Below are positions 1 to 49,643 of a stretch of 64,000 nt of DNA, one piece after another. The position numbers were made by a program, and so were the translations under genes. Under the pieces are notes generated by a model. It saw nothing but the letters and a program-made list of their open reading frames with translations. It ran no database searches and was not told the origin of the DNA. This stretch comes from Actinomycetota bacterium (GTDB lineage: Bacteria; Actinomycetota; Acidimicrobiia; Acidimicrobiales; Ilumatobacteraceae). The stretch lies in NCBI GenBank assembly GCA_963169665.1, contig CAUJET010000204.1, positions 1 to 64,000 of the forward strand. Reading direction: 5' to 3'. Each line of letters starts with the position of its first letter. Positions within the stretch are counted from its first letter, which is position 1.

Positions 1-177
1 AAGCTTCCGGCGGCCGAAGGTTACGGCGTGCGGCGGCCGGAACTGGTCCAGAAGGTCTCGCGCGGCATCTTCCCGGCGGGCAAGCCGCTCGCGGCAGGCA
101 TGACGTTGCAGCGCCAGGACGAGCAGGGCCGCATGCGGCTCGCGCGTGTGCTCGAGGTCGGCGAGACCGAGGTCGTG
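1..177 (+). CDS. SlyD-type FKBP peptidyl-prolyl isomerase, internal fragment
   Basis: Frame 1 from the first base reads without stops and contains EGYGVRRPELVQKVSR, a following FPAG and then LAAGM. This is the layout of SlyD-like FKBP proteins, where YG..(d)PELVQ.V.R..FP......L..GM precedes the insert-in-flap domain. The similarity ends near EVGETEVV, where a SlyD protein would continue into a D-NHPLAG motif. That motif is absent, and the following bases instead read as a flavoprotein on the other strand. The fragment has neither start nor end. It is most likely part of a gene that does not belong next to its neighbour. The family call rests on motif spacing read by eye. Confidence 0.5.
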
Positions 178-372
178 CAGTTGGCGGACCGCACGGGGGG
201 TGAGCACGTCGCCGCAGGCCTTCGACCGGGGGAAGACCCGACGTTCGACGACGACGACGTCATGGCCGCGAGCAGCGAGCCACGCGGCAGCAGCACCACC
301 CGCTGGTCCACCTCCGACGATCAGGACGTCGGCGGTCGGTCCGGCAGCGGCGCCGGGGGGAGGGGGGATCAG
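120..372 (-). CDS. Geranylgeranyl reductase family FAD-dependent oxidoreductase, 5' fragment
   Basis: The minus strand encodes PTADVLIVGGGPAGGAAAAW, the GxGxxG dinucleotide-binding start of a flavoprotein, followed by VVVVERRVFPRSKACGDVLT and PRAVRQLHDLGLAD. The PRxKxCGDxLTPRAVxxLxxLGL block is diagnostic of the geranylgeranyl reductase family, which in actinobacteria reduces isoprenoid tails such as that of menaquinone. The similarity stops after about 80 residues, where the plus strand begins to read as an FKBP. No ATG or GTG is visible in frame; a CTG overlapping the cytochrome c stop codon is the only nearby candidate, so the start is uncertain. The rest of this roughly 400-residue protein is missing. 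Proximity to respiratory genes suits a quinone-modifying role. Confidence 0.6.
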
Positions 373-1205
373 GGCTCCGCGTCGGGAGCGTGACCGGGAG
401 CCGGCGTCGTGCCCACCACGAAGGTGTCCTCGAGCTCGTCGGCGACGTTGTCGAAGGTGATCGAACCGTCCTCGAGGCCGACCCATGCAGGGGCCTCGGG
501 GCTGCACCACTTCTCGTACTCCTCGAGGTAGTCGGCAGTCGGGTCGGCGCCCGACAGCGTGTAGCGCTCGTGGCAGACGACGGCGAGGATCTGCGCCTCG
601 GTGAGGCCACCGCCGGCGGTCGGGCCCTGTGCCGGCATCTGGCCCTTGGCCAGGGTGTTGTGCAGCGGCGAGCGCTCGGGGTTGCCGTAGACGGCGATGC
701 CCTCGTTCGCATACGCCTGTGAGCCGCCGTAGACGAAACGGAGCTGGTCCTCGATGTGCGGGAACGTCTTCAGCACCTCGCCACCGGCGAACGCGTAACC
801 GACGCCACCTTCGCCGCCGGCGCCGTGGCAGCCCGAACAGTTGGCCGTGTAGACCTCGGCACCCTCGCCGAGCGGGCCGGAGACCTTGGCCTCTTTGAAG
901 GTGAGACCCCGGACGTACATGAAGGTCCACAGCGGGAGCAGGCTGAGGGTGGCCATCGCCCAGAACGGGATTCGCTTGCGCGCCTTCGCAGCGGCGACGA
1001 CCGGGATGTCGGGCTTCGGCGGCGGCGGTCCGGCGGGCTTCGCGGGTGCGGCGGGCTTGGCAGCGGCGGCGGGCGTGGCGGCGGCGACCGTGGCCGGTGC
1101 CGACGACGAACCGGCGGCAGGGGCGTCGGCAGGCGCTTCGCCGCCCTCCGCCTTGGCCTTCGCGGCCTTGCTTCGCTTGAGGAGGTGCTCCGGGATCTCG
1201 GTCAC
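369..1205 (-). CDS. Membrane-anchored class I cytochrome c
   Basis: The 278-residue product starts at a GTG and reads VTEIPEHLLKRSKAAKAKAE. An Ala/Pro-rich cytoplasmic stretch follows, then one membrane anchor (IPFWAMATLSLLPLWTFMYV), then an exported haem domain with the single binding site CSGCH and a probable axial Met in KGQMPAQGP. It should shuttle or receive electrons at the outer membrane face, probably for the b6-type complex transcribed divergently. The longer ORF start at 1340 is rejected: the GTG sits 8 nt behind a TATCGT hexamer, and its N-terminus matches that of the subunit IV-like protein at 3490. The gene ends just before the truncated reductase fragment. A role as a complex subunit rather than a free carrier is inferred from the shared N-terminal motif. 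Confidence 0.82.
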   Translation of the reverse strand: MTEIPEHLLKRSKAAKAKAEGGEAPADAPAAGSSSAPATVAAATPAAAAKPAAPAKPAGPPPPKPDIPVVAAAKARKRIPFWAMATLSLLPLWTFMYVRGLTFKEAKVSGPLGEGAEVYTANCSGCHGAGGEGGVGYAFAGGEVLKTFPHIEDQLRFVYGGSQAYANEGIAVYGNPERSPLHNTLAKGQMPAQGPTAGGGLTEAQILAVVCHERYTLSGADPTADYLEEYEKWCSPEAPAWVGLEDGSITFDNVADELEDTFVVGTTPAPGHAPDAEP

Positions 1206-1213
1206 GGCAGAGC

Positions 1214-1219
1214 ACGATA
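1214..1219 (-). promoter_or_regulatory. -10 hexamer TATCGT for the cytochrome c gene
   Basis: TATCGT on the minus strand ends 8 nt before the GTG start, the spacing expected for an actinobacterial leaderless promoter (TANNNT). No Shine-Dalgarno sequence is visible. The same arrangement recurs at several genes in the window, which raises its credibility. Confidence 0.45.
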
Positions 1220-1537
1220 GACGCCCGAGCGCCAGAAAACGGAATCTGCCGCGCGGTCGTTCCGAGGTCACGTCCACGTCGCGTCCACGTCCGGCCCACG
1301 TCCGGCCCACGTCCGCTCGTCGGAGGGTCCGCGGTCGCATGCGTCACGCGATGCACGAGTTCACAACGCACCGTCCGCGGCGTCGGGCGTGGTAGACCGA
1401 TTTCCACACCTTCTCTCGTGATCCAGTCGTCGTCGCCGGTCCGCTGCCGGACATCCGAAGTACGTCGAGCCCCCGTCGATCCCATGCATCTCGGTGTGAT
1501 CGGGGGGTGACCTCCGACGTTCGTCCCCAGCGAACTG

Positions 1538-2187: not shown

Positions 2188-2601
2188 ATGGCACGCACCG
2201 ATGCGAACCCGCCGCTGATGCCGTTCACGGACGCCTATCAGCTGGTCGAGGTCGACGCCGATTACCTCACCAAGGCGGTGAAGCCCAAGCAGTTCATCCA
2301 CATCGACCAGACCGAGTGCATCATGTGCGAGGGCTGCGTCGACATCTGCCCGTGGAAGTGCATCCACATGGTCAACCCCTCGGCCATCGCCGAGGCGTCG
2401 GGCACCGAACTGCCGGGGACCGACCCGAGCGACAACGTGCTGTTCATCATCGACGACGACATCTGCACCCGCTGCGCACTCTGCGTCGACCGCTGCCCGA
2501 CCGGCGTCATCATCCTCGGGAAGGTGGGCACCCCGGACAGCAACGGCAACTCCCACACCCGTACCAACAACCACGGCTATGCCTACGGCATGCGCCTCTG
2601 A
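2188..2601 (+). CDS. 2[4Fe-4S] ferredoxin of the cytochrome b6-type complex
   Basis: The 137-residue protein carries two complete cluster motifs, CIMCEGCVDICP (from about residue 44) and CTRCALCVDRCP (from about residue 93), separated by roughly 35 residues. It has no membrane segment, so it should sit at the cytoplasmic face. It starts two bases after the preceding stop and is followed by cytochrome b, inside the operon. Canonical bc1 and b6f complexes have no ferredoxin subunit, so this gene suggests an extra electron entry or exit at the cytoplasmic side, for example exchange with ferredoxin-dependent enzymes or with the second, NADH-module-less complex I. That role is inferred; the cluster ligands are seen directly. 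Confidence 0.85.
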   Translation: MARTDANPPLMPFTDAYQLVEVDADYLTKAVKPKQFIHIDQTECIMCEGCVDICPWKCIHMVNPSAIAEASGTELPGTDPSDNVLFIIDDDICTRCALCVDRCPTGVIILGKVGTPDSNGNSHTRTNNHGYAYGMRL

Positions 2602-2630
2602 CAGGCGAGATCGGTAAAGGAACAACCCAG

Positions 2631-3416
2631 ATGGCAAAGATCATCGACGAGTCACCTCGCCCCACCGCCAAGGACCGCGTCAACAAGCTGGTCAGCGACA
2701 CGCAGGGCAGCCAGGCGTGGAACAGCATCTTCCGGCCAGGCTCGATCTTCCGCAAGGGCTACACCGACAGCCCGCGCAACCGCAGCTACGTGGTCATGAA
2801 CTCGGTGCTGTACCACCTGCACCCGGTGAAGGTGAAGCGCCACGCGGTCAAGGTGAGCTACACGCTGTGCCTCGGCGGCCTCAGCTTCTTCCTGTTCATC
2901 CTGCTGACGGTCACGGGCATCTTCCTGATGTTCTTCTACCGTCCCGAGGCCACCCAGGCCTGGAACGACATCTCCAACCTGCAGACCTCGGTCACGTTCG
3001 GGTTGCTGGTACGCAACATGCACCGATGGGGCGCTCACCTCATGGTGCTCAGCGTGTTCCTCCACATGGCCCGCGTCTTCTACCACGGTGCCTACAAGGC
3101 GCCCCGCGAGTTCAACTGGGTGATCGGCATCGTCTTGCTGATGCTCACCCTGCTGCTGTCGTTCACCGGCTACCTGCTCCCGTGGGACCAGCTGGCCCTG
3201 TGGGCCGTGGCCGTGGGTACGAACATGATGGGGTACACCCCGGTGTTCGGTTCCGAGGTCAGATTCGTGCTGCTCGGCGGCAAGGAGATCGGTGCCGAGA
3301 CGTTGCTGCGCTGGTATGTCCTCCACGTGCTGATGCTGCCGTTCGTCATCGTGATCTTCATGGCCATCCACTTCTGGCGTGTCCGCAAGGACGGCGGCAT
3401 CTCGGGCCCGCTCTGA
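2631..3416 (+). CDS. qcrB: Cytochrome b, b6-type N-terminal half (diheme)
   Basis: The 261-residue product covers only the four-helix haem-binding half of cytochrome b. The ligand pairs are His131/His145 (in MHRWGAH and FLHMARVF) and His232/His247 (in VLHVLMLP and AIHFW). The second pair is 15 positions apart, as in cytochrome b6, rather than 14 as in bc1-type cytochrome b. AYKAPREFNWV and TGYLLPWDQLALWAV also follow the b6 pattern. It oxidises menaquinol and sends one electron across the membrane. ATG 2631 was chosen because AAAGGA precedes it; the ORF track start lies inside the ferredoxin gene. The quinol-site helices are encoded by the separate next gene, as in b6f and Firmicutes complexes. 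Confidence 0.9.
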   Translation: MAKIIDESPRPTAKDRVNKLVSDTQGSQAWNSIFRPGSIFRKGYTDSPRNRSYVVMNSVLYHLHPVKVKRHAVKVSYTLCLGGLSFFLFILLTVTGIFLMFFYRPEATQAWNDISNLQTSVTFGLLVRNMHRWGAHLMVLSVFLHMARVFYHGAYKAPREFNWVIGIVLLMLTLLLSFTGYLLPWDQLALWAVAVGTNMMGYTPVFGSEVRFVLLGGKEIGAETLLRWYVLHVLMLPFVIVIFMAIHFWRVRKDGGISGPL

Positions 3417-3489: not shown

Positions 3490-4269
3490 GTGACCGAGAT
3501 CCCCGAACACCTCCTCAAGCGGGCCCAGGCCGCGCGAGAGAAGGCCGCCGCCGAGGCGCCCGCCGAGGCAGCATCTGCTGCGCCGGCGGCTTCAGAAGCC
3601 GCTGCCGATCCGCGTATCCCGGCCCACCTGCTCGAGCGCAGCAAGTCCGCGAAGGCACGCGCCGAGGGCGCGAGCGCCGACGGCGGTGGTGGCGTCGCGG
3701 TGCAGGAGAAGGTCGCGAGCGTGGTGCAGGCCGCACCCGCTGGTGGTGGCGTGCCCGTCGGCGCCGGCCCCGGTGGCAACACCCAGCGCCTCCTCACCGT
3801 CGTCAAGAGCGGTTCGATCCAGGAGGTCAAGGCCACTCCGGTCGACAAGGTCCACACCTGGCCGCACCTGCTGGCGGCCGAGTTCGTCGCCGCGCTGGTC
3901 TGCCTCGCGTTCACCTTCGTGTTCTCGGTGTTCGTCAACGCGCCGCTGCTGCAGCTCGCCAACAACAACCAGACGCCGAACCCGTCGAAGGCCCCCTGGT
4001 ACTTCCTCGGTCTGCAGGAACTGCTCACCATGTTCCACCCGATGGTCGCCGGTGTGACCATCCCCGGTGTGGGCATGATCGTGCTGATCCTCGCCCCGTA
4101 CATCGACAAGAACCCGTCCAACAAGCCCGAGGATCGCAAGTTCGCGATCTCGCTGATGACCGTGCACCTCATGTTCTGGGCTGTCCTCGTCATGATCGGC
4201 TCGTTCTTCCGTGGACCGGGCTTCAACTTCACCCTGCCGTGGCGCGACGGCCTGTTCTTCGAGCTGTGA
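3490..4269 (+). CDS. Cytochrome b C-terminal half (subunit IV-like) with basic N-terminal extension
   Basis: The GTG start follows AAGGGAG and gives 259 residues. The C-terminal half has three membrane helices and the subunit IV/PetD signature NPSKAPWYFLGLQELL, supplying the quinol-oxidation site that completes cytochrome b. The first 120 residues are unusual: VTEIPEHLLKRAQAAREKA, an Ala-rich linker, then a second copy as RIPAHLLERSKSAKARAEG, then a Gly/Val-rich linker. The same motif opens the cytochrome c at 369-1205. Family members normally have only a short N-terminus, so the extension is an addition, perhaps for assembly or docking of partners. It is separated from cytochrome b by 73 bp, the longest gap inside this part of the operon. 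Confidence 0.88.
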   Translation: MTEIPEHLLKRAQAAREKAAAEAPAEAASAAPAASEAAADPRIPAHLLERSKSAKARAEGASADGGGGVAVQEKVASVVQAAPAGGGVPVGAGPGGNTQRLLTVVKSGSIQEVKATPVDKVHTWPHLLAAEFVAALVCLAFTFVFSVFVNAPLLQLANNNQTPNPSKAPWYFLGLQELLTMFHPMVAGVTIPGVGMIVLILAPYIDKNPSNKPEDRKFAISLMTVHLMFWAVLVMIGSFFRGPGFNFTLPWRDGLFFEL

Positions 4270-4276
4270 GGTCCGC

Positions 4277-5122
4277 ATGAGTTCCGCTGCTGTCATCGCC
4301 ATCGTCATCGGGGTCGTCGTCGTCCTCGGCGCGATCGCCTTCCTCACCGTCGCCCGCCGCAGCGACGTCCGCGGCGCCGGTGCGCTGTCGCGTGAGACCA
4401 AGCGCCGCGACCGCGACCGCGACGCCGAGATCGACGGACCCGTCACCCCCACCGGCCGCGAGGTCGAGCGTGCCGCCGTGTCCGAGCGGGAGAACTCGCT
4501 CGTCAAGGCCGAGAACCAGGCACCTGCCGTGTGGGTGCCGCCGGATCCGGAGGCCATCGGCGTCAGCCGTCGCCAGTTCTTCAACCGGGCCACCGTCGGC
4601 CTCACCACCACGGGTCTGCTGTCGTTCGCGGCAGCCGGCTTCGTGGCCTTCCTCTGGCCGATCGCCAAGGGCGGCTTCGGTGGCAAGGTCAACGTCGGCA
4701 AGCGTGACGACATCATCGCGAGCATCCGCTCCAACGGCGGCTTCTTCTACGCCCCCGAGGCCCGGGCCTGGCTCACCGAGTACCCCTCGAGCGCACTGCC
4801 CAAGGCGGAGGGCGCCTACGAGCCGGCCGTGCTGGCCTCGCTCGAAGCGGGTCTGATCGCCTCCTACCAGAAGTGCCCGCACCTCGGGTGCCGCGTGCCC
4901 AGCTGCACGAGCAGTCAGTGGTTCGAGTGCCCGTGCCACGGCTCGCAGTACAACCGCGTCGGCGAGAAGAAGGCCGGTCCGGCCCCTCGTGGTCTCGACC
5001 ACTTCGCGTTCACGCTCGGGGCCAGCGGCGACATCGTCGTCGACACCGGCATCATCTACCAGGGCAAGCCGATCGGTACGAACACCACCGGTCAGGAAGC
5101 GGAAGGGCCGCACTGCGTATGA
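4277..5122 (+). CDS. qcrA: Rieske [2Fe-2S] protein with twin-arginine motif
   Basis: The 281-residue protein has an N-terminal membrane helix (residues about 4-24), a charged linker, a twin-arginine motif SRRQFFNRA near residue 98 directly before a second helix, and an exported cluster domain. Both cluster boxes are intact: CPHLGC from about residue 200 and CPCHGSQY from about residue 218, giving two Cys and two His ligands. It takes the first electron from menaquinol and passes it to cytochrome c. The extra N-terminal helix before the Tat-type segment resembles multi-helix actinobacterial QcrA. The start lies 7 bp after the subunit IV stop, and its stop overlaps a downstream ATG (ATGA). Confidence 0.92.
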   Translation: MSSAAVIAIVIGVVVVLGAIAFLTVARRSDVRGAGALSRETKRRDRDRDAEIDGPVTPTGREVERAAVSERENSLVKAENQAPAVWVPPDPEAIGVSRRQFFNRATVGLTTTGLLSFAAAGFVAFLWPIAKGGFGGKVNVGKRDDIIASIRSNGGFFYAPEARAWLTEYPSSALPKAEGAYEPAVLASLEAGLIASYQKCPHLGCRVPSCTSSQWFECPCHGSQYNRVGEKKAGPAPRGLDHFAFTLGASGDIVVDTGIIYQGKPIGTNTTGQEAEGPHCV

Positions 5123-5193: not shown

Positions 5194-6267
5194 ATGCTGG
5201 CTGCAAGTACGACCGCGATCGGCTGGGTGATCTTCACGATCACCGTGCTGGGGTGGGTGGTGTACTACTTCGCGAACCGTCGCTCGGCACAGGCCGAGCT
5301 CGGGTCCGAGGTCGAACTCGCACCGAACCGCAAGCCCTACTACGACGATGAGACCCTCGAGGGCAAGCGCCTCGAGCGCGTCCAGCTCTTCGGTGTGCTG
5401 CTGCTCGCGCTCATCGTCGTGATCCTGCCGCTCTACTGGGTGTTCGAACCGCACCGCCAGGCCGGCGCACAGTCCGGCAAGGAGGGCCGCTTCGTCTCCT
5501 GGGGTAGCCAGCTGTACGCCACCACGGCCGAGGGCGGCTTCAACTGCGCCGGCTGCCACGGTGCGAGCGGTGGCGGCGGCGTCGCCCCGTACTCGGTCAG
5601 CGACCCCCTCACGGGTGAGGTCAAGGCCGTGTCGTGGACCGCTCCGGCGCTGAACACGATCTTCTACCGCTACGACGAGAGCGAGGTGAAGTTCATCCTC
5701 GTCTACGGTCGCCCGTTCTCGCCGATGTCTCCCTGGGGTCTCGCTGGCGGTGGCCCGATGAACGACCAGCAGATCGAGACGCTCATCGCCAAGCTGTGGT
5801 CGCTGCAGATCCCGCGCGAGGGTTGCACCGAGGACGACCCGAACTGCGACACCGGCACGTTGCCGGCGTCGGAGAAGCAGCGCATCGACGCCGACGCGAC
5901 CAAGGCGGCCGAGGCGCTCGTCGCCGCCGGCAAGTACGCCACCGTCGACGACGCGATGGGCGAGGCACTGTTCAACCTCAGCACGTCGAGCGGCGCCTAC
6001 TCGTGCGCTCGCTGTCACACCCAGGGTTGGAGCTGGGGCGATCCCGGCGTCACCGGCCAGGGTGCGTTCGGCTGGAACCTCACGGGCGGCAGCACCGCCA
6101 AGCACTTCCCCGATCAGGCCGACATGGAGAGCTTCATCGCCGCCGGCTCCGAGTACGGCAAGCGCTACGGCGTCCAGGCCCAGGGAAGCGGTCGAATGCC
6201 CGGCTTCGGTGCCATGCTCACCGAGGAACAGATCGAAGCCGTCGTCGAATACGTCCGGAGCCTGTAA
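5194..6267 (+). CDS. Diheme membrane-bound cytochrome c of the b6-type complex
   Basis: The 357-residue protein has two N-terminal membrane segments (around GWVIFTITVLGWVVYYF and LFGVLLLALIVVILPLYW), then two class I cytochrome c domains. The haem sites are CAGCH (Cys at about residue 118) and CARCH (about residue 271). A C-terminal MPGFGAMLTEEQIEAVVEYV supplies the likely axial Met of the second haem, and the first domain has Met in PMSPWG or GPMNDQQ. It should accept electrons from the Rieske protein, the role of diheme QcrC in actinobacteria. AAGGAAGG precedes ATG 5194. Its TAA stop is immediately followed by the GTG of the next gene. Confidence 0.9.
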   Translation: MLAASTTAIGWVIFTITVLGWVVYYFANRRSAQAELGSEVELAPNRKPYYDDETLEGKRLERVQLFGVLLLALIVVILPLYWVFEPHRQAGAQSGKEGRFVSWGSQLYATTAEGGFNCAGCHGASGGGGVAPYSVSDPLTGEVKAVSWTAPALNTIFYRYDESEVKFILVYGRPFSPMSPWGLAGGGPMNDQQIETLIAKLWSLQIPREGCTEDDPNCDTGTLPASEKQRIDADATKAAEALVAAGKYATVDDAMGEALFNLSTSSGAYSCARCHTQGWSWGDPGVTGQGAFGWNLTGGSTAKHFPDQADMESFIAAGSEYGKRYGVQAQGSGRMPGFGAMLTEEQIEAVVEYVRSL

Positions 6268-7150: not shown

Positions 7151-7636
7151 ATGGGCCAGTACCTCCCGGTCGTCGTCCTGTTGGCGCTGGCCATCGTCTT
7201 CGGAGCGTTGAGCTTCTTCGCGTCCCGCCTCCTCGCGCCCCGGCGGCCATCCGCCGCCAAGGAAGCGCCGTACGAGTGCGGCATCGTGCCGAGCCGCGAG
7301 CCACCGGAGCGTTTCCCGGTCACGTTCTACGTGGTTGCGATGTTGTTCATCATGTTCGACATCGAGATCATCTTCATCTACCCCTATGCGGTCGACCGGA
7401 GCTTCCTCGGCTCGTACGCGTTCTGGGAGATGCTGGCCTTCAGCGTCGTGTTCTTCGCTGCGTTCGTCTACGTCGTCGCTCGCGGCGCGCTCGACTGGGG
7501 CCCGGTCCAGAAGTACCGACGCCTCGACGAGTCGATGGCGGCCGTGCGCACCACCACGAGCACCATCCGGCGGGTCGGCCTGGAAGGTCGCCTCGACGAG
7601 GCGGACCAGGCATCACGTCAAGGGGAGGCTGCCTGA
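7151..7636 (+). CDS. nuoA: NADH-quinone oxidoreductase subunit A (complex I-1)
   Basis: The 161-residue protein has the three-helix NuoA fold, with YECGIVPS in the conserved Cys-bearing loop and [20 protein letters not shown] in the second helix, whose Asp/Glu residues line the quinone-to-membrane-arm link. It is longer than the usual 120-130 residues because of a charged C-terminal tail after the third helix. It begins four bases after the previous stop with AAGG upstream, so it appears co-transcribed with the cytochrome complex. Its stop overlaps the ATG of nuoB. A second, shorter NuoA is encoded at 39034. Confidence 0.94.
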
Positions 7637-39033: not shown

Positions 39034-39399
39034 ATGTCAGAGTTTCTTCGCGACTACCTCACCGTGGTCTGGTTCGGGGCGATCGCCCTCGTGCTGGCCG
39101 GTCTGCTGCTGGGGATCGCAGCAGTGGTCCGCCCGAACAAGCCCAACGCCCAGAAGCTCATCGCCTATGAGAGCGGTGTCGATCCCGTGGGCGACGGCTG
39201 GTCACAGAGCCAGGTCCGCTACTACATCTTCGCCCTGCTCTTCGTGGTGTTCGACGTGGAAGCCGTGTTCATCTTCCCTTGGGCCACCCAGCTCGAACGG
39301 TACGGCTCGTTCGGTCTCGTCGAGATGGGTATCTTCGTCTTCGTCCTGCTCCTTGGCCTCGTGTACGCGTGGCGCAAGGGCGTCCTCCGCTGGGTGTAA
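39034..39399 (+). CDS. nuoA: NADH-quinone oxidoreductase subunit A (complex I-2)
   Basis: The 121-residue, three-helix protein has [19 protein letters not shown] and [20 protein letters not shown], the NuoA loop and acidic second helix. The conserved loop Cys (YECG) is replaced by YESG. The length is typical, unlike NuoA1. It opens the second complex I operon behind a leaderless-type promoter. Confidence 0.94.
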
Positions 39400-39403
39400 C
39401 CAC

Positions 39404-39943
39404 ATGGGTCTTGTCGACAAGGGGCGGATGCCCAAACCACTGACGTCCCTGTTCAACCTCGGGCGTTCCTACAGCCTCTGGGTGTACCAGTGGGGTTTGG
39501 CGTGCTGCGCCATCGAGATGGGCGCGGCCTTCGGTTCGCCCCGCTACGACGTGATGCGCCTCGGCGTCATCCCGCTGCCCGCCAGCCCGCGCCAAGCCGA
39601 CCTGGTGGTCATCTCGGGCACCGTCACCGACAAGATGGCCCCGGCCATCAAGCGGCTCTACGAGCAGATGCCCGAGCCCAAGTACGTCATCTCCATGGGT
39701 TCGTGCGCCAACTGCGGCGGCCCGTACTGGGACAGCTACTCCGTCACCAAGGGCGTCGACCAGATCATCCCCGTCGATGTCTACGTGCCGGGATGCCCGC
39801 CCCGTCCGGAGGCCCTGCTCGAGGGCGTCGTGCTGCTGCAGCAACGCATCAAGAACGAAGACATGGGCGCCCGGTGGCGCGGCGAGGAGTACAAGGCGCT
39901 CGTGAAGGACCCGATCGTCGTGGGCGGTGGACCCGTTGAGTGA
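39404..39943 (+). CDS. nuoB: NADH-quinone oxidoreductase subunit B (complex I-2)
   Basis: The 179-residue protein has all N2 ligands: [25 protein letters not shown] and [14 protein letters not shown] 39404 lies four bases after the nuoA stop; the ORF track start is upstream in another gene. Its 3' end overlaps the start of nuoC. Confidence 0.95.
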
Positions 39944-40637
39944 CACCTCGACCTCCCCCACTGCCGACGAGACGCCGGCCCTCGCGAGCGACACGCTCCG
40001 CGAGGGCATCGTCGACAAGTTGCGCGCCGCGCTCGGCGACCAGCTGCTCGACGTCAAGCTCGTGCCGGGCACCGACCTCTGGGCGCGCGTCGCCACCGAG
40101 GCCTGGCGCGACACCGGTCTCGCACTGCGCGACCAGGGCTTCCACTACTTCTGCTTCCTCTCGGCGATCGACTGGCTGCCCAGCCCGTACGGCCGCGGCG
40201 AGGACGATCCGACGGCGCCCGCTCCCGAGCGCTCGACCGAGATCGTGCACGGCTACACCGGCGGCGAGACACGCTTCCAGGTGTTCGCCCGGGTCACCGA
40301 CATCGAGCGTCACATCGGCGTCACGGTGAAGGCCGACGTGCCCGACGTCGCAGCCGGCGAGTCGCCCGTCATCGAGAGTTGGGTCACCAACTACGCGGGC
40401 GCCAACTGGCACGAGCGTGAGTGCCACGAGATGTTCGGCATCACCTTCGCCGGGCACCCCGACCTGCGGAACATGTACCTGCCCACCGACTTCGAGGGCT
40501 ACCCGCTGCGCAAGGACTTCCCGTTGCTCGCCCGGCTCGTGAAGCCGTGGCCGGGCATCGTCGACGTGGAGCCCCTCCCCGGCGAGGGAGACGAATCAAC
40601 CGACGCAGCGGCGGACGGCGAAGGAGCCTCGGCATGA
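39927..40637 (+). CDS. nuoC: NADH-quinone oxidoreductase subunit C (complex I-2)
   Basis: The 236-residue protein contains the 30-kDa signature [20 protein letters not shown] and [16 protein letters not shown]. Its N-terminus and acidic C-terminal tail make it longer than NuoC1. The start is either GTG 39927 or TTG 39936, both inside nuoB; GTG 39927 is given. The stop overlaps the nuoD ATG. Confidence 0.92.
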
Positions 40638-41806
40638 CCGACCTGATCGATCGTCAGAAGCTCAGCTACATCGCGGCCCAGGCCGCCGATGCACGTCTGA
40701 ACGTCGAGCTCGAGACCGAGGGCATGACCCTCAACATCGGGCCCCAGCACCCCGCCACCCACGGCACCCTGCGCATCATCGTCCGCCTCGACGGTGAGCA
40801 GGTGGTGTGGGCCGACCCGTCGGCCGGCTACATGCACCGCGGGTACGAGAAGCTCACCGAGGTCCGTACCTTCCCGCAGGTCACCACGCTGATCAACCGC
40901 ATCGACTGGCTCGGCAGCTTCGCCAACGAAGTGCCGTTCATCCTCGCCGCCGAGCAGCTGATGGACATCGAGGCGCCGCCGCGTGCGCAGTGGATCCGCA
41001 CGATCCTGTTCGAGCTCAGCCGCATCGCCAACGTGTCGCTGTTCCTCGGCGACCTCGGCGTGCAGCTCGGCGCGATCACCCCGGTGTTCATGGCGTTCCG
41101 CGACCGCGAGTACGTGCTGAACCTGATCGAGGGCGCCACCGGTGGTCGGTTCCACCCCAACTTCGACCGCATCGGCGGCCTCAAGGACGACCTGCCCAAG
41201 GGCTGGATCGACGAGACCCGTCAGGTCATGAAGAAGCTCCGCAACTTCTGCGACGAGATCGAGAACCTGCTCTTCGGCAACAAGATCTTCCAGGACCGCA
41301 CCCGCGGCATCGGCGTCATCCCGCCGGCCGTGGCCCAGCAGTACGGCCTCTCGGGCGCCAACCTGCGCGCCAGCGGTGTCGACTGGGACCTGCGTCGTGA
41401 CCAGAAGATCGCGCTCGCCTACGACAAGGTCGACTTCAAGGTCTGGACCCACCCGGACGGCGACAGCTTCGCCCGCTGCTGGATCCGCCTGCAGGAGACC
41501 CGCGAGGCCACCAAGATCGTCGACCAGCTCCTCGACGGGATCCCGTCGGGGCCGGTCATGGCCAAGGTGCCGCGCATCATCAAGGTGCCCGAGGGCGAAG
41601 CCTGGGTGAGCACCGAGAACCCGCTCGGTGAGATGGGCTACTACGTGGTGAGCCAGGGCGACCTCGGCCCGTTCCGCGTGAAGATCCGCACGGCGAGCTT
41701 CAACAACATCTCGATCGTGCCGTGGGTGCTCCGTGGCGTGTACGTCCCCGACGTCATCACCATCCTCGCCTCGCTGTACTTCATCCTCGGAGACATCGAC
41801 AAGTGA
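40634..41806 (+). CDS. nuoD: NADH-quinone oxidoreductase subunit D (complex I-2), HRG type
   Basis: The 390-residue quinone-cavity subunit contains NIGPQHPATHGTLR and GYMHRGYEKLTEVRTFPQV. The HRG arginine corresponds to the residue that NDUFAF7 symmetrically dimethylates in mitochondrial NDUFS2; NuoD1 has Thr there. The C-terminus ends LGDIDK instead of the usual DR. A MidA/NDUFAF7-type methyltransferase ends this operon. ATG 40634 overlaps the nuoC stop. Confidence 0.95.
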   Translation: MTDLIDRQKLSYIAAQAADARLNVELETEGMTLNIGPQHPATHGTLRIIVRLDGEQVVWADPSAGYMHRGYEKLTEVRTFPQVTTLINRIDWLGSFANEVPFILAAEQLMDIEAPPRAQWIRTILFELSRIANVSLFLGDLGVQLGAITPVFMAFRDREYVLNLIEGATGGRFHPNFDRIGGLKDDLPKGWIDETRQVMKKLRNFCDEIENLLFGNKIFQDRTRGIGVIPPAVAQQYGLSGANLRASGVDWDLRRDQKIALAYDKVDFKVWTHPDGDSFARCWIRLQETREATKIVDQLLDGIPSGPVMAKVPRIIKVPEGEAWVSTENPLGEMGYYVVSQGDLGPFRVKIRTASFNNISIVPWVLRGVYVPDVITILASLYFILGDIDK

Positions 41807-42849
41807 TCGCCGTCGACCTTCCCTATTGGGCACAGTCGCTGCTGCGGGTGCTCGGCGGCACGGTCGCCGTGCTGCTCCCCGCGGGCACGATCGTGTACCT
41901 GTTCCTGTTCAAGATGATGAGCTTCATGCAGAGTCGTCTCGGACCCATGGAGGCCGGCCCGTACGGCTCCATGCAGCTGTTCGCCGAGGTCGGCAAGTGG
42001 CTGCAGAAGGAGGACATCCAGCCAGCGCTGGCGGACAAGAAGATCTTCAAGATCGCCCCGCTGATCGTCCTGGTGAGCACCTTCATCCTGGTGGCCGTGG
42101 TGCCCTTCGGCCCCGACGCCTACTTCACCGACTTCGAGGCGGGCGTGTTCTACGCCCTGGCCGTCAGCTCGGTGAGCGTGCTCGGCATCCTCATCGCCGG
42201 CTGGTCGAGCGCCAACAAGTACTCGCTCCTCGGCGGTCTGCGCGCCGCCGGTCAGCTCATCGCCTACGAGCTCCCGATGGTGCTCGCCGTCGTCGGCGTG
42301 GTCATCCAGGCCGGCTCGATGAACATGCAGCAGATCGTGTTCGCCCAGAACCACGGCTCGATCTTCGGTTGGGACGGCGTCGGCAACCCGTACGTCCTCA
42401 CCCAGTTCGTCGCCTTCGGCGTGTTCATGATCGCCGTGCAGGCCGAGCTCACCCAGACGCCGTTCGACATGCCGATCGCCGAGTCCGAACTCGTGTCCGG
42501 ATACATGACGGAGTACTCGGGCTTCCGCTTCCTCATCTTCTTCATCGCCGAGTTCGCCAACGTCGGCATCTTCGCCCTCATCGCGAGCGTGCTGTTCCTC
42601 GGCGGCTGGGGTGTCCCGTTCAGCTGGTTCGGCTGGGACTCGATGGACGCGGTCGACGACTGGATGAACGTCGTCGGGCCGCTGATCATGATCGGCAAGA
42701 TGCTCGCCCTGTCGTTCCTCATCATGTGGGTGCGTTTCAGCTATCCCCGACTCCGTGAGGACCAGCTGCAGCGCTTCGCCTGGAAGGTGCTCATCCCCGT
42801 GTCACTCGTGAACATCATGCTGACCGCGATCTTGAAGGTGGCCTTCTGA
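41803..42849 (+). CDS. nuoH: NADH-quinone oxidoreductase subunit H (complex I-2)
   Basis: The 348-residue protein has [22 protein letters not shown] in the first loop, [13 protein letters not shown], and [21 protein letters not shown], the acidic E-channel loop. GTG 41803 overlaps the nuoD stop. It follows nuoD directly: nuoE, nuoF and nuoG, which lie between D and H in complex I-1, are absent. Confidence 0.95.
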
Positions 42850-43364
42850 TGGGGTTCTTGAAGGATCGCTACAACGAGTACGGCAAGGGCATGTCGGTCA
42901 CGCTCAACACCTTCGTGCAGACCGTGAAGCCGAAGAAGTTGGGCGGCGGCGCCGCCACCGTCCAGTACCCCCGCGAGAAAGAGGCGCCGCCCATCCGGGC
43001 GCGTGGCGTCATCGCGCTCCGCGAGGACAACTGCACGTCGTGCATGCTCTGCGCCCGCAGCTGCCCCGACTGGTGTATCTACATCGAAGGTCACAAGGAG
43101 CTGGCACCGCCGCGCCGCGCCGGTGGCGCACCCCGCAAGGTGAACAAGCTCGACCGGTTCGACATCGACTACGCGTTGTGCATGTACTGCGGCATCTGTG
43201 TCGAGGTCTGCCCGTTCGACGCGCTCTTCTGGAGCCCCGAGTACGAGTACAGCGAGCCCCGCATCGCCGACCTGCTGCACGACAAGACCAAGCTCGGCGA
43301 GTGGATGGAGACGGTGCCCGAGGCGCCCGAGCTCGAGGCCGGCGCGGAGAAGAAGAAGAAGTGA
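42849..43364 (+). CDS. nuoI: NADH-quinone oxidoreductase subunit I (complex I-2)
   Basis: The 171-residue subunit has [15 protein letters not shown] and [12 protein letters not shown] for N6a and N6b. It ends with a Glu/Lys-rich tail. In a complex without NuoEFG it is the outermost iron-sulfur subunit and thus the likely entry point for electrons from ferredoxin or another donor. It overlaps nuoH and nuoJ by TGATG and GTGA. Confidence 0.94.
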
Positions 43365-43885
43365 GCGCCGTGATCCTCGCCGACGACATCTACGTGGCCC
43401 AGAACATCGGCTTCGGCATCATCGCCGCGGTCATGATCGTCGGTGCCCTCAAGGTGGTCACCAGCAAGAACGTCGTGCACGCGGCCCTGTCGCTCGTGCT
43501 CGTGCTCGCCGGCGCCGCCGCCCAGTACCTCCTCCTCGCCGCCGAGTTCGTGGCCGTCACCCAGGTGCTGGTCTACGTCGGCGCCGTCATGGTGCTGTTC
43601 CTGTTCGGTGTGATGCTCACCCGGGCCAAGCTCGGCCAGGAGGGCGACCTCAACAACAAGAACGCCCTGCTCGGCGTGCCGGTCGCGCTGCTGATGCTCG
43701 GCGTCATGTCGTGGGTGCTCATCGACGGTTTCGAGGACACCAAGCTCCCGCAGGACGGCGACCAGGTCTCCGTCCAGGCGGTCAGCGACAGCATCTTCAA
43801 GCCGTACCTGCTGCCGTTCTGGGCGCTGTCGTTCGTGCTCCTCGCCGCTGTCATCGGCGCCATCGTGCTGGCCAGGAAGGACTGA
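43361..43885 (+). CDS. nuoJ: NADH-quinone oxidoreductase subunit J (complex I-2)
   Basis: The 174-residue, five-helix protein carries [20 protein letters not shown], the NuoJ third helix. GTG 43361 overlaps the nuoI stop; an in-frame GTG at 43370 is an alternative. A hydrophilic loop with Asp/Gln precedes the last helix. Confidence 0.93.
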
Positions 43886-43892
43886 GGCCGCG

Positions 43893-44192
43893 ATGTTGAT
43901 CAACAACTTCCTGCTGCTCGGCGCGGTGCTGTTCTGCATCGGCGTCTACGGCGTGATCGCCCGCAAGAACGCCGTCATGGTGCTGATGAGCATCGAGCTG
44001 ATCCTCAACTCGGTGAACATCAACCTCCTCGCGTTCAGCCAGCTGCACGACAACGTCGACGGCAACACGTTCGCGCTGTACATCATCGCCGTGGCCGCCG
44101 CCGAGGTCGGTGTGGGTCTCGCGATGGTGCTGCTCATCTATCGCAACCGCAAGAGCATCTCGCTCGACGAACTCTCCGAGATGAAGGGCTGA
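43893..44192 (+). CDS. nuoK: NADH-quinone oxidoreductase subunit K (complex I-2)
   Basis: The 99-residue, three-helix protein has LMSIELILNSVNINLLAFS and VAAAEVGVGLAMVLLIYR with the two membrane glutamates. It starts seven bases after the nuoJ stop and three bases before nuoL. Confidence 0.94.
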   Translation: MLINNFLLLGAVLFCIGVYGVIARKNAVMVLMSIELILNSVNINLLAFSQLHDNVDGNTFALYIIAVAAAEVGVGLAMVLLIYRNRKSISLDELSEMKG

Positions 44193-44195
44193 TTC

Positions 44196-46523
<2,328 letters not shown>

Positions 46524-46536
46524 GGACAGCTGAACC

Positions 46537-48111
46537 ATGGACGTCATCTCCGATCAGAACTGGCTGCTGAGCCTGGGCACCTTCCTGCCCCTCGCCGGCG
46601 TGCTGGTGATGCTGCTCATCCCGAAGCGCGAGGAGCTCCTGCACAAGCAGGTGGCACTCGTGACGGCGTTGGGCACCCTGGGTGTGGGCATCTACACCCT
46701 CACCCAGTTCGACTACGACAAGGCCGAGCAGCTCCAGTTCTACGCGAACACCGAGTGGATCAGCGTCATCAAGAGCGGCTACACGATCGGCCTCGACGGG
46801 ATCAGCCTGCCGCTGTACTTCCTGTCGATGGTGATCACCGTGCTGGTGATGATCTACAGCTGGGACCACATCCCGTCGCCGGGCAATCCCAAGGCGTTCC
46901 TGATCCTGATGCTGGTGCTCCAGACCGGTATGGCCGGCACCTTCATCGCCCAGGACCTCATCCTCTTCTTCGTCTTCTTCGAAGTGGTGCTGCTGCCGAT
47001 GTACTTCATGATCGGTGTGTGGGGCGGTGAGCAGCGCCAGTACGCGTCGCTCAAGTTCTTCCTCTACACCATGTTCGGCTCGGCCCTGATGCTGGTGGCC
47101 TTCCTGGCGCTCTTCTACCAGACCGACAGCGTGAGCTTCTCGATCCCGTACCTCATCGAGCAGGGCATCAACATCGACGAGGACGTCGCCGTCTGGATCT
47201 TCGCCGGCATGTTCATCGGCTTCGCGGTCAAGGTGCCGATGTTCCCGTTCCACACCTGGTTGCCCGACGCCCATACCCAGGCCCCCACGCAGGGCTCGGT
47301 CATCCTGGCCGCCATCCTGCTGAAGCTCGGTACCTATGGCTTCGTCCGCATCGCCATCCCGATCCTGCCCCAGGCCGCCGTCAAGTGGGCCCCGGTCATC
47401 GGCGTGCTCGCCGTGATCGGCATCATCTACGGCGCCCTCGGCTGTCTTGCCCAGAAGGACATGAAGCGCCTGATCGCCTTCAGCTCCGTGGCGCACATGG
47501 GCTTCGTGATGCTCGGCATCTCCACGCTCACCGCGACGGGCATCAACGCGGCGATGTTCGGCATGGTCGCCCACGGTCTGATCACCGGCATGCTCTTCTT
47601 CTGCGCCGGCAGCATCAAGGAGCGCTACCACACGCTCGAGATCAGCCGGCTCAGCGGCCTGCTCATCCAGATGCCCAAGCTCGGCTGGATCCTCGGCTTC
47701 TGTGCGATGGCCTCGCTCGGTCTGCCCGGCCTCGCCGGCTTCTGGGGCGAGTTCCCGGCGATCCTCAGCGCCTACAACCCGGCGCCCGCACTCAGCGAGC
47801 CGCTGTTCCGGGTGCTCATGGTCATCGCCGCGCTCGGCACGGTGCTCGCCGCCGCCTACCTCCTGTGGCTCTACCAGCGCACGGCGTTCGGTGAACCCAA
47901 CCCGGAGTTCACCGGTCACGGCCACGCCCACGCCGTCGGCGCCGCCGGCAACGACGAGCATCACGACGACATCCATGACGTCAACGTCTTCGAGTGGATC
48001 GCCTGGACCCCGCTGCTCATCGCGATCGTGGTCTTCGGTGTCTACCCGCAGCTGATGTTCAAGGTCATGGATCCGGCGGTCACCCAGCTCGTGGAAGTGT
48101 TCAACAAGTGA
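46537..48111 (+). CDS. nuoM: NADH-quinone oxidoreductase subunit M (complex I-2)
   Basis: The 524-residue pump has FFVFFEVVLLPMYFMIGVWG (TM5), PMFPFHTWLPDAHTQAPTQG (TM7) and KDMKRLIAFSSVAHMGFVML (TM8). Near the C-terminus is a short His-rich stretch (GHGHAHAVGAAGNDEHHDD, about residues 459-477). GAGGAC precedes ATG 46537. The stop overlaps the nuoN GTG. Confidence 0.95.
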   Translation: MDVISDQNWLLSLGTFLPLAGVLVMLLIPKREELLHKQVALVTALGTLGVGIYTLTQFDYDKAEQLQFYANTEWISVIKSGYTIGLDGISLPLYFLSMVITVLVMIYSWDHIPSPGNPKAFLILMLVLQTGMAGTFIAQDLILFFVFFEVVLLPMYFMIGVWGGEQRQYASLKFFLYTMFGSALMLVAFLALFYQTDSVSFSIPYLIEQGINIDEDVAVWIFAGMFIGFAVKVPMFPFHTWLPDAHTQAPTQGSVILAAILLKLGTYGFVRIAIPILPQAAVKWAPVIGVLAVIGIIYGALGCLAQKDMKRLIAFSSVAHMGFVMLGISTLTATGINAAMFGMVAHGLITGMLFFCAGSIKERYHTLEISRLSGLLIQMPKLGWILGFCAMASLGLPGLAGFWGEFPAILSAYNPAPALSEPLFRVLMVIAALGTVLAAAYLLWLYQRTAFGEPNPEFTGHGHAHAVGAAGNDEHHDDIHDVNVFEWIAWTPLLIAIVVFGVYPQLMFKVMDPAVTQLVEVFNK

Positions 48112-49643
48112 TCGCGTCCCTCCTCGCAGCAGCCGGGGACTTCGTGGCGCCGGTGGCCGACTACCACGCGCTCGCGCCCGAGATCGTCCTCGCCGCGGGC
48201 ATCTGCCTCGTGCTGCTCGTCGACCTGTTCGTCGAGGAGCGCCAGCGCTGGATCACCTCGACGCTCGCCGGCTTCGTGCTGCTCGGTGCGTTCATCCCGG
48301 TGGTCACGCTCGCCGTCATCGGTGGCGACGTCCGCAACGGCTTGGGCGGCGACGTGCTCGACGGTCGCTACGTGATCGACGAGTACGCGCTCATCCTGAA
48401 GGCACTGTTCCTCATCGCCGGCTACGTGGTGGTGCTGATGAGCTCCGACGAGATCGAGAGCGGCCGCTACCACCAGGGCGAGTACTACGTGCTGTTGCTC
48501 ACCAGCGTGCTCGGCATGGTGATGATGGCGTCGTCGCGCGATCTCATCAGCATCTTCGTGGCGCTCGAGTTCCTCTCGATCCCGGCCTACATGCTCGCTG
48601 CGTGGAACAAGCGCAACAGCAAGGGCAACGAGGCGGGCATGAAGTACTACCTGCTGGGCGTGTTCGCCTCGGCGATCATGCTGTACGGCATGAGCCTGCT
48701 GTACGGCGTCACCGGCACCACGTTGCTCAGCGAGATCGGTCCGGCGATCACCGCCAACGGTCAGTTCAGCGGCATCGAGGCGCTGGCCGTGGTGTTCATC
48801 GTCGTCGGCTTCGCCTTCAAGGTGAGCGCCGTGCCGTTCCACCAATGGGCGCCCGACGTCTACGAGGGCGCACCGACGCCGATCACCGCGTTCTTGAGCG
48901 TGGCCTCGAAGGCGGCCGGTTTCGTGGCCCTCACGACGCTCGTGTTCCTCGCTTTCCCACTGGCCTCCGACGTGTATCAGCCCTTCATCTGGGTGCTGTC
49001 GGCGGCGTCGATGACGGTGGGCAACCTGCTCGCACTGCGCCAGACGAACATCGTCCGCATGCTCGCCTACTCGAGCATCAGCCAGGGCGGCTTCATCCTC
49101 ATGCCGCTCACGGTGGCGGGTGAGGCCGGCGTCGGTGAGTCGGCGCTCAAGGCGGTCGTCGTGTACCTGGTGGTCTACGCCGCGACCAACCTCGGCGCCT
49201 TCGCCGTGGTCATCGCCGTCGCGAAGAAGACCCGCAGCGGTGACATCTCCAGCTTCGGCGGGCTCTTCTCGTATGCGCCGGCGCTCGGTGTGCTCATGAC
49301 CGTGTTCCTCGCCTCGCTGGCCGGCATCCCGCCGCTCGGCGGCTGGTTCGCCAAGTTCGGCGCCTTCAAGGCCGTCCTCGACGCCGGCACCAACTGGGGT
49401 TACTCGATCGCGATCATCGCTGCGCTCAACACCGTCATCGCCGCGGCGTACTACATCACCGTGATGCGCGAGATCTGGATGAAGCCGGTGCCGGACGGCG
49501 ACGTCACGCCGATCCGCACGCCGTCGTCGATCCAGGCTGCGCTCGTCATCACCTGTGGCGCCACGATCGTGCTGGGCGTGCTGCCCGACCTGGTCGGCCG
49601 CTTCGGCGATCTCAGCGATCTCACCGGTGCCCTCGGCCGCTGA
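48108..49643 (+). CDS. nuoN: NADH-quinone oxidoreductase subunit N (complex I-2)
   Basis: The 511-residue pump has IFVALEFLSIPAYMLAAWNK (TM5), FKVSAVPFHQWAPDVYEGAP (TM7) and TNIVRMLAYSSISQGGFILM (TM8); the TM8 Lys of NuoN1 (VKRM) is Arg (VRM) at one position. GTG 48108 overlaps the nuoM stop. The last 17 bases overlap the methyltransferase gene in another frame. Confidence 0.95.
   Translation: MIASLLAAAGDFVAPVADYHALAPEIVLAAGICLVLLVDLFVEERQRWITSTLAGFVLLGAFIPVVTLAVIGGDVRNGLGGDVLDGRYVIDEYALILKALFLIAGYVVVLMSSDEIESGRYHQGEYYVLLLTSVLGMVMMASSRDLISIFVALEFLSIPAYMLAAWNKRNSKGNEAGMKYYLLGVFASAIMLYGMSLLYGVTGTTLLSEIGPAITANGQFSGIEALAVVFIVVGFAFKVSAVPFHQWAPDVYEGAPTPITAFLSVASKAAGFVALTTLVFLAFPLASDVYQPFIWVLSAASMTVGNLLALRQTNIVRMLAYSSISQGGFILMPLTVAGEAGVGESALKAVVVYLVVYAATNLGAFAVVIAVAKKTRSGDISSFGGLFSYAPALGVLMTVFLASLAGIPPLGGWFAKFGAFKAVLDAGTNWGYSIAIIAALNTVIAAAYYITVMREIWMKPVPDGDVTPIRTPSSIQAALVITCGATIVLGVLPDLVGRFGDLSDLTGALGR

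Follow-up and report, generated by a model that had tools for sequence, protein, structure and literature searches.

We found that a gene for a 2[4Fe-4S] ferredoxin (FD) is a conserved member of a b6-type complex III gene cluster in much of the phylum Actinomycetota, which suggests a respiratory complex wired to cytoplasmic electron carriers. The cluster lies in the window, the whole stretch of 64,000 nucleotides that we analyzed from contig C204 of an Ilumatobacteraceae draft genome of 5.8 Mb; the nearest named relatives are MAGs of Ilumatobacteraceae and of other Acidimicrobiia. There the genes for X1, FD, cytochrome b6, subunit IV, the Rieske protein, a diheme cytochrome c and X2 are co-directional, and nuoA follows at 7151 (Table 1). 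The initial annotation described an eight-cysteine 2[4Fe-4S] ferredoxin encoded between a small membrane protein and cytochrome b, and the open reading frame, the cysteines, the Pfam matches and the conservation all agree with it. A single base separates FD from the end of X1 at 2186, and since FD ends at 2601 and the ATG of cytochrome b6 is at 2631, the interval singled out by that annotation (2188-3416) is exactly FD plus cytochrome b6.

Table 1. Features of the ferredoxin-containing complex III cluster and its surroundings in the window
Feature	Position	Strand	Characteristics and basis
X1, small membrane protein, 161 aa	1701..2186	+	3 membrane-length helices, basic C-terminal tail; AF2 model
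FD, 2[4Fe-4S] ferredoxin, 137 aa, acidic	2188..2601	+	conserved N- and C-terminal extensions flank both clusters; Pfam, alignments
Cytochrome b6, four-helix type	2631..3416	+	PF00033; four b-heme His present
Cys codon in SYTLCLGG, Cys35 equivalent of cytochrome b6 (covalent heme cN site)	2868..2870	+	PDB alignment register
Subunit IV (petD-like)	3490..4269	+	PF00032; long N-terminal extension with two IPxHLLxRS motifs
Glu codon in WPHLLAAEF of subunit IV	3880..3882	+	by-eye alignment with b6f Phe40
Rieske protein	4277..5122	+	PF00355; CPHLGC, CPCHGSQY
Diheme cytochrome c, membrane-anchored	5194..6267	+	PF00034, PF13442; two CxxCH
X2, membrane protein with folded extramembrane domain, 292 aa	6268..7146	+	AF2 model
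Divergent monoheme cytochrome c, associated, non-core	369..1340	-	common neighbour in Acidimicrobiia loci

The cytochrome b of the cluster is split, with PF00033 (E-value 8.6e-47) and PF00032 (1.9e-7) matching separate open reading frames, and the Rieske protein (5.5e-9) has both the CxHxGC and the CxCHxS motif. The cytochrome b6 gene is the sole PF00033 match in the whole genome; the cluster is therefore the cell's complex III rather than a spare copy. The division of cytochrome b into b6 and subunit IV, the Cys35 equivalent and the Rieske protein are as in b6f and heliobacterial b6c complexes, and a diheme cytochrome c replaces cytochrome f, as it does in heliobacteria. Relative to both, the cluster adds FD, X1 and X2, for which we know of no counterparts in either complex, and its subunit IV has a long N-terminal extension. 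Actinobacterial QcrABC, a bc1-type complex, has the same role of menaquinol:cytochrome c reductase, but QcrB is a single chain of ~500 aa, and cytochrome b6 of the window is not a QcrB (121.7 bits against a model cut-off of 500). QcrB takes the place of this cluster in several genomes belonging to its order, and those Acidimicrobiia without a b6-type cytochrome whose genomes we examined encode a QcrB-type cytochrome b instead. Cytochrome b6 passes the NCBIfam ExtP model (308 bits, cut-off 290) and subunit IV fails the ExtQ model (46.6 bits, cut-off 150). The Geobacter ExtOPQ selenite/tellurite cluster as described has multiheme cytochromes and no ferredoxin (PMC5877670), whereas the only cytochrome c within the window's cluster is the diheme one.

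FD itself has two complete CxxCxxCxxxCP motifs, with cysteines at 44, 47, 50 and 54 and at 93, 96, 99 and 103, and it matches Pfam 4Fe-4S dicluster families above their cut-offs. None of the eight cluster cysteines varies in either of two alignments (21 and 22 sequences). A ninth cysteine at 58 does not mark the family, because NuoI of the same genome also has CPxxC and one FD homolog is without it. In Acidimicrobiia both extensions are conserved (Y17, P33, K34, F36 and a YGxR end), as would be anticipated if its partner were constant. By eye FD has no obvious signal peptide, and we take it to be cytoplasmic. A search of PDB sequences returned no close relative, the best matches being polyferredoxins, with NuoI-type chains at ~28-30 bits, and FD relatives were absent from the plasmids searched. 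That FD is a chance reading frame is ruled out by its conservation (the invariant cysteines and a seven-gene order kept in dozens of genomes), and its location rules out that it is a part of complex I. Among the loci examined there was no genuine fusion of FD to a complex subunit, a joined FD-b6 frame in L086 being an apparent frameshift. One genome, G133, has a second FD copy alone at an unrelated locus (L080:9491-9904), identical over 411 bases; either a gene-sized stretch was duplicated exactly, or the copy is an artefact of the assembly.

No relatives are known of the two added and conserved membrane partners, X1 and X2: neither has a match in Pfam, NCBIfam, PDB sequences or PDB folds. The X1 model (pLDDT 87) has helices at 14-36, 45-76 and 108-146, and the distribution of charges indicates that its basic tail is probably on the cytoplasmic side, the same side as FD. 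The X2 model has a pLDDT of 88.5; matches of X2 homologs to NCBIfam lipoyl-domain models are probably artefacts of Ala/Pro-rich linkers, as the X2 fold search was empty. A further shared element is an EIPEHLLKRSxAAKxKA-type motif at the cytoplasmic N-termini of both subunit IV (3490-3700, twice) and the upstream cytochrome c (1100-1205, - strand), which recurs across Acidimicrobiia and has a different Ala/Lys/Arg-rich helix in its place in other families of the phylum; it may be where a partner common to the two proteins docks. Its loss from FD-less subunit IV was considered as a signal of an interface and rejected, because FD-bearing lineages also vary the His and just two FD-less sequences were available.

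How constant is the association of FD with this complex? The order X1-FD-b6-IV-Rieske-c-X2 recurs across the Acidimicrobiia and at 30 loci outside that class, in other actinomycetotal families, so that the seven genes are, as first proposed, a conserved unit. X1 is present in 29 of 31 relatives, and among 80 retrieved loci annotated by profiles X1 has its conserved placement in 72 and X2 in 68, the exceptions to the seven-gene order being contig-end cuts, frameshifts and FD-less loci. FD has a match (E <= 1e-8) in 165 of 198 Acidimicrobiia genomes, 158 of them strong, and is retained in genomes near 1 Mb. A b6-type cytochrome occurs in 163 of the 198 and is accompanied by FD in 156, or in 156 of 159 once four contig-end cuts are left out (G110, G122, G136 and G213, of which G122 retains the end of FD). 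The wider phylum sample holds 100 genomes with a b6-type match, and FD is present in 92 of the 97 that can be assessed, which leaves out G308, with only a second complex type described below, and the truncated G232 and G441. The ferredoxin is thus not missing from most clusters.

The genomes truly without FD are three Acidimicrobiia (G047, G063 and G139), in which X1 adjoins b6, and five from the phylum sample (G274, G329, G339, G359 and G378; loci L240-L244). At L219, L220, L222 and L240-L244, where FD is absent and X1 abuts b6, the heme cN cysteine is kept in all. Five families or more have lost FD cleanly but keep X1 and the other genes, and these repeated clean losses lead to the conclusion that FD is a dedicated, tightly linked but optional component. 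The initial proposal of an extended complex with a ferredoxin therefore stands with regard to conserved linkage, while FD is dispensable to it. These natural FD-minus relatives permit direct comparisons within one genus (G063/G122) and within one family (G139/G020).

From the gene linkage we infer that FD is physically bound to complex III, and the core subunits offer a candidate point of entry for its electrons. Residues 64-250 of cytochrome b6 align with 30-215 of solved b6f cytochrome b6 chains in the PDB, its b-heme histidine pairs are in place, spaced 14 and 15, and all 74 cluster-type cytochromes b have the Cys35 equivalent, in the motif CLGG. In subunit IV of the cluster a WPHL...E pattern is essentially universal; by analogy its Glu, which is also found at this position in menaquinone-type complexes, is proposed as the second ligand of heme cN. 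Glu ligation at the position of b6f subunit IV Phe40 lowers the potential of heme cN (PMC12954380). The cluster complex would accordingly be expected to bind a heme cN, and one of low potential. The suggestion that the complex is a ferredoxin-linked quinone enzyme is compatible with this conserved site.

We propose that the cluster encodes a menaquinol:cytochrome c oxidoreductase of the b6c type with two additional membrane subunits, X1 and X2, and with a cytoplasmic FD that wires heme cN/bN to a soluble carrier, electrons likely flowing inward; we give this reading about an even chance of being right. FD would lie on the n-side, probably docked to the N-terminus of b6, which is basic and cytoplasmic, and to the X1 tail. 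The mean net charges (-10 for FD, +8 for the cytoplasmic N-terminus of b6) fit such docking, but an acidic ferredoxin facing basic cytoplasmic loops is a generic feature. Through its two clusters FD would connect the cytoplasmic carrier to heme cN/bN at the Qn site, and in the most likely direction electrons would pass from ferredoxin reduced by 2-oxoacid:ferredoxin oxidoreductases to FD, heme cN and menaquinone, the resulting quinol then being oxidized by the same complex towards cytochrome c. We favor inward flow because it is downhill and needs no special potentials, and because it fits both the near-universal occurrence of POR and OGOR in Acidimicrobiia (PMC11697166) and a complex that still works once FD is lost. 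The genome of the window has KOR alpha, as do 22 of 24 genomes, whether FD-bearing or FD-less; FD is therefore not the sole route for KOR electrons, and with KOR alpha nearly everywhere its co-occurrence with FD is of no use as a test of the donor. The proposal for cyclic electron flow through b6f embodies the same idea, that ferredoxin electrons enter at heme cN/Qn, although in plants the ferredoxin is a mobile [2Fe-2S] protein and here it would be a dedicated 2[4Fe-4S] protein encoded in the cluster.

The initial annotation held that Rieske/cytochrome b complexes lack such a subunit, which is too strong, as counterparts exist in anammox bacteria (PMC12954380) and in a second type of actinomycetotal complex. 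On their cytoplasmic side, anammox Rieske/cytochrome b complexes have an NAD(P) oxidoreductase that contains Fe-S clusters, and those encoded by Kuste4569-4574 and Kustd1480-1485 resemble ours in having a b6-like cytochrome b, an SUIV-like protein and hemes cN (PMC12954380). In both cases a cytoplasmic Fe-S path is encoded beside cytochrome b, its attachment being putative here. The n-side part in anammox is a large FAD/NAD(P) oxidoreductase, whereas that of the window's cluster is a stand-alone, flavin-free ferredoxin, profile searches having found no flavin/NAD(P)-binding (Pyr_redox-type) gene in the cluster; on the p-side a multiheme cytochrome in anammox contrasts with the diheme cytochrome c.

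The second Rieske/cytochrome b cluster type, found in some Actinomycetota (L224, L229, L231, L246 and L247), has the gene order flavoprotein, cytochrome b, IV, Rieske, c. The flavoprotein combines Fer4_20, Pyr_redox_2 and a C-terminal 4Fe-4S dicluster domain (assigned by Pfam, and for L247 judged by sequence instead); among PDB entries it matches NfnA/NfnABC-type proteins, Nfn and GltD best, and the FD profile scores 56-71 bits on its C-terminal domain. NfnABC is also the DALI match of the anammox subunit Kuste4570 (PMC12954380). Upstream of the flavoprotein in L231, L246 and L247 is a weak X1-like gene (20-24 bits). The cytochrome b of this type, in the cases read, is without the heme cN cysteine, so that the window's cluster differs from it both in this residue and in having no NfnB/GltD-like flavin domain. 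From this layout FD occupies the place of the cytoplasmic oxidoreductase module in a sister complex, and the second type is an apparent relative, in other bacteria, of the NAD(P)-linked complexes of anammox. Two genomes (G065 and G088; L227, L228 and L231) have four to five genes for cytochrome b. One of these belongs to a Rieske-b6-multiheme cytochrome c arrangement, and the multiheme cytochrome frame there, of ~745 aa, also matches subunit IV at its N-terminus. Among the papers that were searchable, we found no account of the X1-FD-b6 cluster; within this literature, what is new is a b6c-type complex with a stand-alone ferredoxin replacing an anammox-type cytoplasmic oxidoreductase.

Could electrons instead flow outward through the same assembly? 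Menaquinol would then be bifurcated at Qp, with the first electron going to the Rieske protein and cytochrome c and the second via bP and bN (cN) to FD, which would reduce a low-potential carrier in the cytoplasm, in the way proposed for anammox complexes and NAD(P)+. The anammox argument rests on high-potential Rieske proteins (PMC12954380), and 68 of 69 Rieske homologs of our cluster have the Ser/Tyr pair that goes with high potential; FD also stands where the second actinomycetotal complex type has its Pyr_redox/NfnB-like flavoprotein, and reduced ferredoxin is required by the roTCA cycle, through which Acidimicrobiia can fix CO2 (PMC11697166). We nevertheless consider outward flow unlikely, because [4Fe-4S] ferredoxin potentials are usually well below those expected for bN, a Glu-ligated heme cN of low potential, together with a Qn site, is well matched to normal turnover of the Q-cycle, and the b6/IV core motifs are unchanged despite repeated loss of FD. 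Its boldest form, in which FD hands the low-potential electron to ferredoxin and aerobic Actinomycetota obtain reduced ferredoxin directly from complex III, is distinctly unlikely; if true, the reduced ferredoxin could serve, for example, carbon fixation by the roTCA cycle.

A different question is whether FD has any business with complex III, or is a soluble ferredoxin for a nearby enzyme and merely co-transcribed. The start of a geranylgeranyl-reductase-like flavoprotein gene, cut by the contig start, lies at 1-390 (- strand) of the window; this gene is a frequent divergent neighbor of the cluster in Acidimicrobiia and its product probably saturates the menaquinone side chain. Ferredoxin can serve archaeal geranylgeranyl reductases, and in 25 of the loci searched a gene of the reductase family is near the cluster, often directly upstream of X1. 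Such a role for FD is weakened by the absence of the reductase gene from all 30 non-Acidimicrobiia loci, where FD is still between X1 and b6, and by its persistence at L219, L220 and L222, where FD has been lost; we judge it highly improbable.

FD might otherwise be an accessory with no catalytic electron route, either structural or redox-sensing, or an assembly factor for heme cN. In b6f, heme cN attachment needs dedicated maturation, and the dispensability of FD in several lineages would suit an accessory. Complexes without FD keep the heme cN cysteine, however, and the full conservation of both clusters goes beyond structural need, so there is little likelihood that FD is of this kind. It is least probable, and indeed very unlikely, that FD feeds the second complex I, to which the initial annotation had tentatively linked it. 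The operon of that complex is at 39034-49643 (NuoA, C, D and I by profile), and it does lack NuoEFG, but FD was never found in a second complex I operon at the loci examined: in the window the FD cluster is followed by the complete NuoA-N set, and elsewhere it recurs with no nuo genes nearby, which leaves the link without positional support.

Returning to the reading we prefer, that of a complex III with inward electron flow from FD, the cluster in question holds the only cytochrome b of its genome and is the usual form in very abundant, little-studied bacteria, namely Acidimicrobiia, among them those with ~1 Mb genomes, as well as other deep Actinomycetota. Should FD prove to be a subunit, then complex III in these organisms would be a quinol:cytochrome c enzyme and at the same time a junction with the cytoplasmic ferredoxin pool. 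It would then represent a pared-down relative of the unusual complexes of anammox bacteria, and would be relevant to a long-standing question, namely whether heme cN is an entry point for ferredoxin into b6-type complexes and how such entry works.
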